From NCBI GenBank assembly GCA_946614405.1, contig CAMOGZ010000094.1, positions 1-6,252 of the forward strand: 6,252 bases of DNA, given 5' to 3'. Below, one piece after another: positions 3,090 to 4,957 of this stretch (position 1 is the stretch's first letter; each line of letters starts with the position of its first letter). A model generated the notes under the pieces. That model was not told the DNA's origin. It saw only the letters and a list, made by a program, of their open reading frames with translations, and did no database searches. A program made the position numbers and the translations under genes. The stretch is from an uncultured Eubacterium sp. Its GTDB lineage: Bacteria > Bacillota > Clostridia > Peptostreptococcales > Anaerovoracaceae.

Positions 3090-3818
3090 TCAGCGCACTT
3101 CCTCAATACTGCTATCACTATCTTCCCCGAAGGTCTTGAATTCCTGTACGATCTTCAGGTCGATTCCGTAGATGGTATAGCCCTCGATGTAAAGCTTCAC
3201 ATCGTCAGGATGTCTGGTCATCTTGGTGGTGCGGCCGAACATATACTTCTTGCCGTACCACTTGGTCCCTCCGGTGGCGTAGTTTACCTCATAGGTCCCC
3301 AGAGGTGCCTTGAATTCCACCGTCTTTCCGGCCTTCACATAGAATGCAAAACTGTCCTCCGATTCGTCTTTGTTCTTGAAGAAGACGTAGGCATCGGAGT
3401 CCTTGCTGCAGGTGACCTTCACCGGGGAGACGGGTTCCCCCTTGAACTCCCGGAACATGTGGCCGTTCTTGACCTTCTTTTCCTTATATTTCACATGGAC
3501 CTGACAGGTCCCCTGGATCCGCTCTTTGTCGGCGACATAGGCCCGGACCTGGGCATAGCCTTCTCCCACGGCGTGGAGGTCCCCGGCCAGATCCACCTTC
3601 ACCACCTCAGGATCGGAGCTCTCCCACTTGATGAGGTCGTACTCCCGTTTCTTCTCGGATACCGTGGTCAGGTCGAAGGTCTTGCCGGCATAGAGTTCCA
3701 CCGGCTCCCCTCCATTCAGGATCAGAGAGTCCCGCAGATACTCCGGAAGCAGGGTCAGCACCCCGCCGGAGGTCACCATAAAGGCGATGAATACCAATAA
3801 TGCTATGACTCGTTTCAT
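3090..3818 (-). CDS. Secreted or membrane-anchored protein with Ig-like (Big-type) domain, function unknown
   Basis: 242 residues. MKR followed by a hydrophobic stretch (about 4-24) is a signal peptide or N-terminal anchor; there is no lipobox cysteine, so it is not an obvious lipoprotein. Residues about 35-112 look like a bacterial Ig-like (Big_2) domain: the WESSDPEVVKV segment (65-75), then an AVGEGYAQVRAYV segment (83-95). Residues about 130-225 resemble a beta-rich domain I associate with Firmicute surface proteins, with YVKAGKTVEF, PLGTYEVNYATGG and WYGKKYMFG (187-195) as the recognisable parts. The tail is acidic. The start ATG has GGAG 4 bases upstream (3823-3826). It is the first gene of a unit with cobD; the pairing does not explain its role. 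A binding or envelope role outside the membrane is inference only. Confidence 0.85.
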   Translation of the reverse strand: MKRVIALLVFIAFMVTSGGVLTLLPEYLRDSLILNGGEPVELYAGKTFDLTTVSEKKREYDLIKWESSDPEVVKVDLAGDLHAVGEGYAQVRAYVADKERIQGTCQVHVKYKEKKVKNGHMFREFKGEPVSPVKVTCSKDSDAYVFFKNKDESEDSFAFYVKAGKTVEFKAPLGTYEVNYATGGTKWYGKKYMFGRTTKMTRHPDDVKLYIEGYTIYGIDLKIVQEFKTFGEDSDSSIEEVR

Positions 3819-3830
3819 ATCACTCCAAAT

Positions 3831-3858
3831 AAAAAAAGTGCACGTTCCAACTGCACTT
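3831..3858 (-). terminator. Intrinsic terminator at the 3' end of the candidate RNA
   Basis: On the minus strand AAGTGCA (3858-3852) pairs perfectly with TGCACTT (3842-3836). GTT/AAC can extend the stem past one bulged G. Seven U residues follow, coded by the A run 3831-3837. It ends five bases before the GGAG of the secreted-protein gene, so transcripts from far upstream should stop here unless the hairpin is prevented from forming. Confidence 0.85.
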
Positions 3859-3859
3859 A

Positions 3860-3888
3860 ATTATAGCGGTTATTCACATCTCAGGCAA
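3860..3888 (-). promoter_or_regulatory. Promoter of the secreted protein-cobD unit
   Basis: TTGCCT (3888-3883), a 17-base spacer and a perfect TATAAT (3865-3860). The expected start, near 3853-3855, falls inside the left arm of the terminator hairpin. A transcript begun here would carry only part of that arm and should escape termination, while one from the upstream RNA promoter would be stopped. The leader would be about 35 bases. Confidence 0.65.
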
Positions 3889-3903
3889 CATCAATTTCCA
3901 TTT

Positions 3904-3949
3904 CCGCGGTAGCTCGCAGCCAAATCGGAGATTTGGGCGAGCCTCGCGG
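3904..3949 (-). repeat. Inverted repeat forming a long hairpin within the candidate RNA
   Basis: CCGCG/CGCGG (3904-3908 with 3945-3949), GCTCGC/GCGAGC (3912-3917 with 3937-3942) and CCAAATC/GATTTGG (3920-3926 with 3930-3936) stack with a 2-base bulge and a 3-base loop. That is 18 pairs in 46 bases. There is no U-run after it, so it is a structural stem rather than a terminator. It sits inside the helix 3955-3961/3882-3888. Confidence 0.8.
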
Positions 3950-4299
3950 CTGACCTGCCTGCGGCTCTGTCTGCGCCTTCGGCTTGCCAATCGCCGGGCT
4001 AGGGACAAGCAACATACAAAACCGGCTGCGTTTCTCTTGTTCACTCCGAAGCTTTCATCTTACTACACCCACTACTTGGTGAGCAGTCGTAACTTTCCGC
4101 TTTAGCACAGATCCTTGGTTTCGCAATGATAACACTGGATCCAACAACACAGCCGGTTTCACCGATTGATATTCACTTGCACTTCTGGTGGACTCACCCT
4201 CCTTCATCCGCCACCGGTCTCACCCGATGACTTTCTCGTCTCCAAAAGCGAACCTGCTTCGCCGCTTTCGCTCACTTGCTTTCCGCTTTTCTTATCTAA

Positions 4300-4327
4300 A
4301 GTATAGCATAAAATCCCCCCGAGTCAA
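4300..4327 (-). promoter_or_regulatory. Strong promoter of the candidate RNA
   Basis: TTGACT (4327-4322), a 16-base spacer and TATACT (4305-4300): five of six consensus bases in each hexamer. It lies just after the mnmM terminator and has no protein start close downstream. The first 7-bp helix of the RNA begins about three bases after the expected start at 4293. Confidence 0.8.
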
Positions 4328-4345
4328 GGCAAAAACGGAATTTTC

Positions 4346-4378
4346 AAAAAATTACCACGATTTGCATTTTACTGGTAA
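4346..4378 (-). terminator. Probable intrinsic terminator after mnmM
   Basis: On the minus strand TTACCA (4378-4373) pairs with TGGTAA (4357-4352) around a 15-base loop, followed by a run of six U (4351-4346, with the first overlapping the stem flank). The stem is short and AT-rich, so termination may be partial. It lies 9 bases past the mnmM stop. Confidence 0.55.
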
Positions 4379-4387
4379 AGGGACACA

Positions 4388-4957
4388 CTACCGTTTCCGG
4401 GTGATCCACAGCACCTCCGGCGGGTTCTTTTGCTGGTTCAGCATGTTGCCGTAGACCACGTGATACTGCCGCGGGTCCAGTGCCCCGGCCCATTCCAGAA
4501 TCTGCTCCTTCTCCTCCCGGCCCTGCTCGTGGCCGTCATACATGACCACTGTCACGATGCCGTCTGTGCGGATCGCCGTCAGGGCCGCTTCCAGACCACG
4601 GAGAGTCTCCGAAGCGTCAGTGGTGATGGCTTTGTCCCCTCCCGGGAGGTATCCCAGGTTGAAGATCACGCAGGAGGCACTCCCCGGCGCCACGTATTCT
4701 CCCATGGTGGCGAAGGACCCGTGGACCAGCTTCACATTGTCATACCCCTGGCATGCCAGGTATCCGCTGGTGGCGTCGATGGCCCGCTTCTGAATATCGA
4801 AGGCCCAGACGGTACCCCCGGAGCCCACGGCCTTTGCAAGGGTCAGGGTGTCATTGCCGTTTCCGCAGGTAGCGTCCACCACAACATCACCCAGCCCCAC
4901 ATAGGGCCGGGTGACAGTCATAGCCAGTTCAGTTGTCTTTACCAGTATATTGCTCAT
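4388..4957 (-). CDS. mnmM: tRNA 5-aminomethyl-uridine-34 methyltransferase (YtqB/MnmM family)
   Basis: 189 residues, the usual length for this compact SAM-dependent methyltransferase family, once annotated as putative rRNA methylase (YtqB). Known members in Bacillus and Staphylococcus methylate the aminomethyl group on tRNA wobble uridine to give mnm5(s2)U. Visible motifs are SAM motif I DATCGNGNDT (28-37), acidic D54 in FDIQ, the family signature FNLGYLPGGDK (99-109), YDGH (140-143) and the C-terminal NQQKNPP (174-180). All match the B. subtilis protein closely. The ATG shares one base with the dsdA stop (TAATG), so translation is probably coupled; only a weak GGGGA lies upstream, inside dsdA. 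Its substrate in this organism is inferred from the family. Confidence 0.9.
   Translation of the reverse strand: MSNILVKTTELAMTVTRPYVGLGDVVVDATCGNGNDTLTLAKAVGSGGTVWAFDIQKRAIDATSGYLACQGYDNVKLVHGSFATMGEYVAPGSASCVIFNLGYLPGGDKAITTDASETLRGLEAALTAIRTDGIVTVVMYDGHEQGREEKEQILEWAGALDPRQYHVVYGNMLNQQKNPPEVLWITRKR

Follow-up and report, generated by a model that had tools for sequence, protein, structure and literature searches.

A predicted RNA of about 280 nt with a putative ribosome-binding-like micro-ORF module in an uncultured Eubacterium and its relatives in Clostridia

Leader-peptide attenuators, such as mgtL, the erm leaders and vmlR, are built around a short ORF whose stop codon lies at a terminator stem. 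Dual-function sRNAs, such as SR1, RNAIII and SgrS, are RNAs of regulatory size that contain a small ORF. The large structured RNAs of Bacillota (OLE, ROOL, GOLLD and raiA/ModT; for ModT, the available part of PMC11706538) are standalone units with their own promoter and terminator. STAB-SD, described for cry3A in the accessible portion of PMC4113751, is a Shine-Dalgarno-like run without a start codon at the normal distance. In S. aureus, moreover, hpf, which encodes a hibernation factor, is tied to the regulator CodY (available part of PMC6256015).

Here, we analyse a locus of an uncultured Eubacterium sp. that shares features with each of these systems. The window (that is, the whole stretch of 6,252 nt that was analysed) very probably contains a real RNA gene that carries a micro-ORF module, predicted on the minus strand at 4293-4012. 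Like the large RNAs of Bacillota, the unit appears to stand alone with its own promoter and terminator, and some of its relatives (in families f2, f15 and f21) reach a similar size of 340-530 nt; unlike them, it has no Rfam match, measures only about 280 nt in the window and concentrates its conservation in the ribosome-binding-like micro-ORF module. Unlike the leader-peptide attenuators, it has no conserved downstream gene, and its module also occurs away from terminators. The difference from SR1, RNAIII and SgrS is that the ORFs mostly have 5-25 codons, that the peptide is not conserved and that some relatives hold at least two modules. Compared with the STAB-SD of cry3A, as the same portion of PMC4113751 presents it, a framed micro-ORF follows the Shine-Dalgarno-like run here, in a standalone RNA. 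With the CodY-regulated hpf system (within the excerpts of PMC6256015) the locus shares a predicted CodY link from nutrients to ribosome use, albeit with an RNA instead of a protein factor and with the action of CodY deduced from a box. A keyword search of the literature found no earlier description of such an RNA, a method that can't exclude one.

The original prediction had proposed a single promoter-to-terminator unit with no protein at 3831-4327, a structured RNA of about 460 nt for which ROOL, GOLLD, raiA and HEARO RNAs were the natural comparison. Both of its end signals are present. The near-consensus promoter (4327-4300, minus strand, 10/12) is kept at the same place in relatives, and the terminator hairpin followed by T7 can be read at 3858-3831 (minus strand), although our terminator scanner did not list it, probably because its loop is longer than 8 nt. 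Since the window holds five promoter-like sites against 3.5 in shuffles, the promoter match alone proves little. The proposed interval, flanked by an rRNA_methylase-like gene (4388-4957) on one side and a Big_2 domain gene (3090-3818) on the other, is made up of several parts: the predicted RNA, about 280 nt long (4293 to ~4012), then a dispersed repeat (4012-3929), then a distal promoter and a hairpin (table 1). In relatives, the RNA ends at the stem that matches window 4159-4143 with 4035-4019, hence the length of about 280 nt. Moreover, when 60 relatives were searched by DNA, pieces of 4012-3929 turned up apart from the RNA, two such places being elsewhere in this genome; with up to three mismatches, the repeat core has two copies in this genome, the window's being one. 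A single ornate RNA of 460 nt, framed as it is by the promoter and the distal hairpin, is hardly credible when part of its 3' third is a dispersed repeat and the RNAs of relatives stop earlier. The TATAAT at 3865-3860 and the distal hairpin probably belong to the gene at 3818, directly after them. Within window 3818-3860, this TATAAT would start the Big_2 transcript inside the hairpin, so that the mRNA may begin with a 5' stem-loop.

Table 1. Features of the locus, in window coordinates.
Feature	Position	Strand	Basis
CodY-box-like site AATTTTTTGAAAATT, 14/15 to AATTTTCWGAAAATT, upstream of promoter	4339..4353	(-)	consensus match
Promoter TTGACT-N16-TATACT, TG before -10	4300..4327	(-)	10/12 match; promoter kept here in relatives
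Predicted RNA, about 280 nt	4012..4293	(-)	ends inferred from promoter and 3' hairpin
5' hairpin CATCGG-GTGAGA-CCGGTG	4213..4230	(-)	sequence comparison
Shine-Dalgarno-like GAAGGAGG	4198..4205	(-)	motif alignment
Micro-ORF GTG AGT CCA CCA GAA GTG CAA GTG AAT ATC AAT CGG TGA (VSPPEVQVNINR, stop)	4159..4197	(-)	frame analysis
Closing stem 5' arm, RNA's likely own terminator; first base is the stop codon's last	4143..4159	(-)	stem search
Inner hairpin GGATCC..GGATCT within closing stem	4109..4142	(-)	four-sequence alignment
Helix with internal loop (CTAAAGC GGAAAG .. GATGAAA GCTTCGG)	4046..4105	(-)	common to congeneric relatives, four-sequence alignment
Closing stem 3' arm, then TGTATGTTG (weak U tract)	4019..4035	(-)	stem search
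Dispersed GC-rich repeat, absent from relatives' RNA	3929..4012	(-)	DNA searches of relatives
Promoter-like TTGCCT-N17-TATAAT, probably for gene at 3818	3860..3888	(-)	promoter scan; assignment inferred
Hairpin plus T7, the terminator of the original prediction	3831..3858	(-)	sequence
Next gene, Big_2 (Ig-like) protein	3090..3818	(-)	domain search

The GC-rich repeat around GGCGATTGGCAAGCCGAAGGCGCAGACAGAGCC is REP-like and was seen at window 3929-4012 and at L002, L003, L007, L009, L015, L023 and L029. In genome G008 (51736-52292) it is arranged in tandem, mostly with 101-bp spacing, and in the genome of the window it also follows genes with a SecA-like tail (judged by eye).

What stands of the original prediction is a standalone structured RNA without an Rfam family. 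The folding energy is only modestly below that of shuffles (-155.1 vs -142.1 ± 5.7 kcal/mol; z -2.27, with 1 of 100 shuffles equally good). Covariation supports parts of the structure: it was seen in nine relatives whose 3' domain is long, both in the closing stem and in two helices that flank a purine-rich internal loop. In their alignment, from which the structure itself was derived and which thereby favours it, 97.0% of cells are paired (slid controls at most 54.3%) and 8 of 26 pairs have changed on both sides, against 2.8 ± 1.3 in shuffles and with 0 of 500 as high. Further pair types in the nine relatives are not above chance (16 vs 16.3 in shuffles). A four-sequence alignment that includes the window has inner helices similar to those of the nine-relative set, and relatives of type B have a helix similar to that at 4046-4105. 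At the place of 4213-4230, close relatives form hairpins from other sequences, as judged by eye. A GGTG/CACC hairpin in the core was not relied on; it is broken in, for example, the first copies of L081 and L118.

No Rfam covariance model matched inside the window's unit even at E<=5, the families checked including ROOL, GOLLD, raiA, OLE, HEARO, T-box, tmRNA and 6S, and membership of ROOL, GOLLD, raiA or HEARO is not supported. Nothing above chance came from the same models on 17, 18, 11 and 6 relative loci (E<=1 or 2). The T-box and tRNA matches in the loci searched lie outside the units, and a single match (E 1.3, far below cut-off) overlies the terminator hairpin of L087. Both the RNA at 4293-4012 and the relatives searched are without an Rfam family. 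ARAGORN reported 0 tRNA/tmRNA genes in the window, a distant BLAST against plasmid and phage collections returned no match, and the core pattern was not found in viral contigs. In two congeneric genomes, a T-box leader that scores below the Rfam cut-off sits just downstream of the RNA (L032 1744-2014 and L034 994-1264).

Searches across Clostridia find relatives in the order and, less surely, in other families of the class. At the DNA level, four congeneric genomes out of the 60 searched (G002, G007, G008 and G013) share parts of the 5' ~250 nt. A core pattern search gave 12 stretches, including Hornefia butyriciproducens, Aminicella lysinilytica, Anaerovorax odorimutans and uncultured Eubacteriales/Bacillota; two of them, L056 (in Desulfoluna, ahead of what by eye is a selA-like gene) and L060, were discarded as likely chance matches. 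A core covariance model matched 56 of 393 genomes of the order at 59 places; 39 of these genomes belong to the same family as the window, 13 to a second one (f2) and 4 to others. All 59 places were inspected by reading; L119 proved to be coding, and in L114, from the same genus, the motif is degraded. Within the family, a pattern search allowing up to two mismatches found 18 of 296 genomes, and L043, L045, L047 and L049 from this search look like coding or chance matches. The f2 RNAs are about 340-510 nt long and combine two module copies, a covarying ACAAG-loop hairpin and a terminator. They also contain a conserved TTATGTNAACC-like stretch (L081 about 1365-1415 and other f2 loci).

At a wider scale, the phylum search with the core model matched 65 of 398 genomes at E<=0.1; 14 of the 30 returned loci were inspected, and just two besides the window are convincing, L122 from its own genus and L138 from its class. 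The class search reached 34 of 341 genomes (E<=0.03), with 7 RNA-like places among 22 loci inspected, and a search of family f21 reached 38 of 116 (E<=0.1), with 15 RNA-like among 19. In family f15, a DNA search found 4 of 60 genomes, the query's own included, and two are convincing relatives. RNA-like places beyond the order fall in families f15, f21, f154, f173 and f207; those of f15 and f21 are about 220-530 nt long by eye, and the loci tested are Rfam-negative. Units related to the window's may occur, less surely, in other families of the class; what the families appear to have in common is the module, and homology of the whole RNA between families is a candidate only. The copies are related and some nearly identical, so all counts given here overstate independence. 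Two further matches stand apart: in L200 (family f192, around 1501), the motif AGAAAAGAGGTGAGACCACC lies directly before the ATG of a seemingly ordinary coding sequence, and in L127 (elsewhere in the phylum, around 1501), a gene that looks nifH-like by eye has AAGGAGGTGATTCTGCCAGAAATGTTAGCAGTATAA just upstream, which may be there by chance.

The best conserved feature of the unit is a ribosome-binding-like site with a putative micro-ORF. The original prediction of 'no protein' is thus inexact, given a micro-ORF of conserved geometry at 4197-4159. In the window it has 12 codons, with a second in-frame start-like GTG at 4182. Read in order, the copies have a purine run and (G/A)TG, then a single variable codon followed by CCN CCN and in most cases GAA or AAA, with a few more codons before the stop. 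The common core thus comprises a Shine-Dalgarno-like run, a GTG or ATG, codons for x-Pro-Pro-(Glu/Lys) and, soon after them, a stop in the same frame. Because the pattern used to extract the 67 instances demanded CCNCC followed by (A/G)A(A/G), the conservation of these positions is partly by selection. The purine run is present in the copies of the module set and resembles the complement of the 16S 3' end, with which it may pair.

The position of the stop codon is frame-specific. Of 56 terminator-proximal copies in the order, 46 have the first stop after +15 of the GTG frame at the terminator foot, compared with 5 and 11 for the other frames; shuffles reach 19.0 ± 3.5, with a maximum of 30. 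In the 47 less similar copies, the corresponding counts are 37, 5 and 8. These counts leave out L119 and L114 as well as the near-identical L083, L094, L095 and L112. Seven copies have no RTG at about +15, and in six of them (L038, L078, L081, L089, L108 and L109) the GTG frame stops at the foot all the same, while in L103 it runs past it. A 1-nt indel breaks the GTG frame in four copies (L086, L117, L118 and L120), where a later RTG frame reaches a stop at 37-38 nt. Among the aligned f2 copies, linker lengths vary by 3, 6 or 9 nt. Of 41 further copies (first copies in the order, from f2, plus other families), 22 have their stop exactly at codon 7, against 3.6 ± 1.8 with a maximum of 11 in 2000 shuffles, and against 5 and 1 at matching places in the other frames. 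All of TAA, TAG and TGA serve as stops in these copies and ATG replaces GTG in five; the RTG is lost in L220 and L221 (f15). Such frame-specific stops point to translation of the putative micro-ORF. They also make it hard to do without translation, as does the GTG/ATG exchange, and we consider it quite unlikely that the unit is an sRNA without any coding role, which would act in trans by pairing its purine-rich core with mRNAs and whose reading frame would be incidental, even though the core is conserved as RNA and the frame has no synonymous excess.

Codon-type conservation, the sign of a protein gene, was looked for and is absent: the ORF has 17 synonymous to 68 other codons, the other frames 12/69 and 19/64. 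This lack of synonymous bias also bears on a micropeptide gene, with a short peptide MxPP(E/K).. as product, signal or regulator. The xPP(E/K) does recur in all 67 instances, where the extraction pattern demanded it, and L227 and L228 have similar 25-residue peptides in common. However, the residues after PPE vary and the lengths range from 5 to 30, and a micropeptide gene is very unlikely. Ribosome engagement, rather than the peptide, seems to be what is selected.

The spacing of the possible starts counts against efficient initiation: there is no gap between the Shine-Dalgarno run and the start-like GTG, and one of about 14 nt before the alternative RTG, both of them poor distances for a start codon. 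Across 26 RNAs, there are 77 Shine-Dalgarno words against 38 ± 6 expected, a count that includes the motif itself and several ends set by eye; for the window alone, extra ribosome-complementary words are not above chance (2 vs 1.57 in shuffles). Two or three tandem Shine-Dalgarno micro-ORFs precede a single terminator in L108, L118 and L138. Once translation is under way, the Pro-Pro codons may matter. According to the available part of PMC4140641, PPX motifs can pause ribosomes without EF-P in a context-dependent way, PPE being among the strong pauses listed and PPK among both pausing and non-pausing sites. Ribosomes may pause in this way on the micro-ORF too.

The stop codon is also close to the terminator stem, as in an attenuator. 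The two are at most 12 nt apart in 50 of 57 copies (median -5), the seven beyond this distance being L088, L103, L105, L115, L116, L122 and L138. For ordinary genes of the same loci (39 of 273 with a terminator found), the stop-to-stem median is +20 and the stem starts before the stop in 5 of 39, in a search window somewhat different from that used for the RNA copies. A cis-acting leader-peptide attenuator, in which a ribosome translating the micro-ORF would open the terminator stem and allow polymerase through into the downstream gene, would account for a stop in or at the foot of the stem, and a gene of cluster c18 (CorA-like by eye) follows in 3 of 41 loci, plus some further loci. On the other hand, the downstream neighbours differ among loci, with no conserved same-strand gene. 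A simple ORF caller placed the next gene of 41 loci on the same strand in 20, on the opposite strand in 20 and found none in 1; it misassigned the window, which is truly same-strand, for a corrected count of 21/19. At 7 of 8 f2 loci the RNA and the gene that comes next are convergent, and in other families the module is often far from the terminator (by eye). A second terminator, expected for a defined readthrough product, was found in only 4 of 53 (1.9% in shuffles), and we rejected it as a general sign of readthrough. Taken together, a cis-acting attenuator is improbable. A ribosome effect in trans is favoured because no downstream gene is conserved.

Upstream of the promoter, a box points to nutrient control. 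We scanned 210 nt upstream of each copy for the CodY box consensus AATTTTCWGAAAATT, which is taken from the available part of PMC5314169. A site matching at least 13 of 15 positions is found in 22 of 43 copies of the window's family, the window included, against 1 of 84 control pieces (intergenic, 80-210 nt, from the same loci), and one matching at least 14 of 15 in 10 of 43 against 0 of 84. In shuffles for both families tested, the rates are 1.0% (>=13) and 0.1% (>=14). The box ends 23-26 nt before the -10, i.e. against the -35, in 20 of the 22 family copies; the gap is 33 in the window and 36 in L103. About half of the copies in the window's family have no good box. In f21, 5 of 15 copies reach 13 of 15, with sites inside the promoter by eye, whereas the best match is 10-11 of 15 in 13 f2 copies and in three f15 stretches, one of which was set upstream of its promoter. 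A TATTCTGAATA-like palindrome lies between -35 and -10 of many f21 promoters (e.g. L238 and L247), a possible variant of the CodY box. A codY gene (PF06018 over cut-off) is present in 23 of 26 genomes tested, including that of the window (G000). Judging from the box near the promoter, CodY control of the RNA is likely.

From these observations we propose, tentatively and at slightly less than even chances, that the locus encodes a predicted nutrient-regulated, ribosome-docking RNA of ~280 nt, with a core that is found again in several families of Clostridia. The ribosome-binding-like site and tiny reading frame suggest that it likely works by engaging ribosomes, probably when nutrients are short. 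CodY would restrain transcription while GTP and branched-chain amino acids are plentiful and release it on nutrient limitation. The RNA would then form a hairpin region on its 5' side and, on its 3' side, a structured domain whose closing stem, on comparative evidence, likely doubles as terminator. Ribosomes would bind the purine-rich site that resembles the complement of the 16S 3' end, translate fMet-x-Pro-Pro-(Glu/Lys) and a few more codons, as the comparison of frames suggests, and stop at the foot of the 3' hairpin. Since start, Pro-Pro and stop position are kept but the peptide varies in sequence, it would be the presence of the ribosome that matters, through the holding of ribosomes, protection of the RNA or, in this order, gating of the hairpin. 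Of these, we favour the holding of ribosomes in trans; gating of the terminator may be a local use.

An alternative is a stabiliser of the STAB-SD type only, in which a 30S subunit parks on the Shine-Dalgarno-like run and shields the RNA from RNase J. It has the precedent described for cry3A (in the accessible portion of PMC4113751), and the purine run does resemble the 16S complement, while start codons are missing at the usual distance from it; such a stabiliser leaves the Pro-Pro codons and the fixed stop unexplained, and is distinctly improbable as the whole explanation. A wider form of the proposed ribosome docking is a predicted class-wide, nutrient-controlled ribosome-parking RNA with one or more landing modules of Shine-Dalgarno plus fMet-x-Pro-Pro-(Glu/Lys)-x-stop. 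Slow or abortive rounds of ribosomes would occupy it once CodY repression lifts, making it an RNA counterpart of hibernation factors. This extension is unlikely as it stands.

Several families of Clostridia hold Rfam-negative RNAs with a common, testable module, and its carriers include the cultured species Hornefia butyriciproducens, Aminicella lysinilytica and Anaerovorax odorimutans. If ribosomes are engaged as predicted, the RNA would connect nutrient sensing to translation, and it would show that six-codon reading frames can be selected for their action on ribosomes and not for a peptide.
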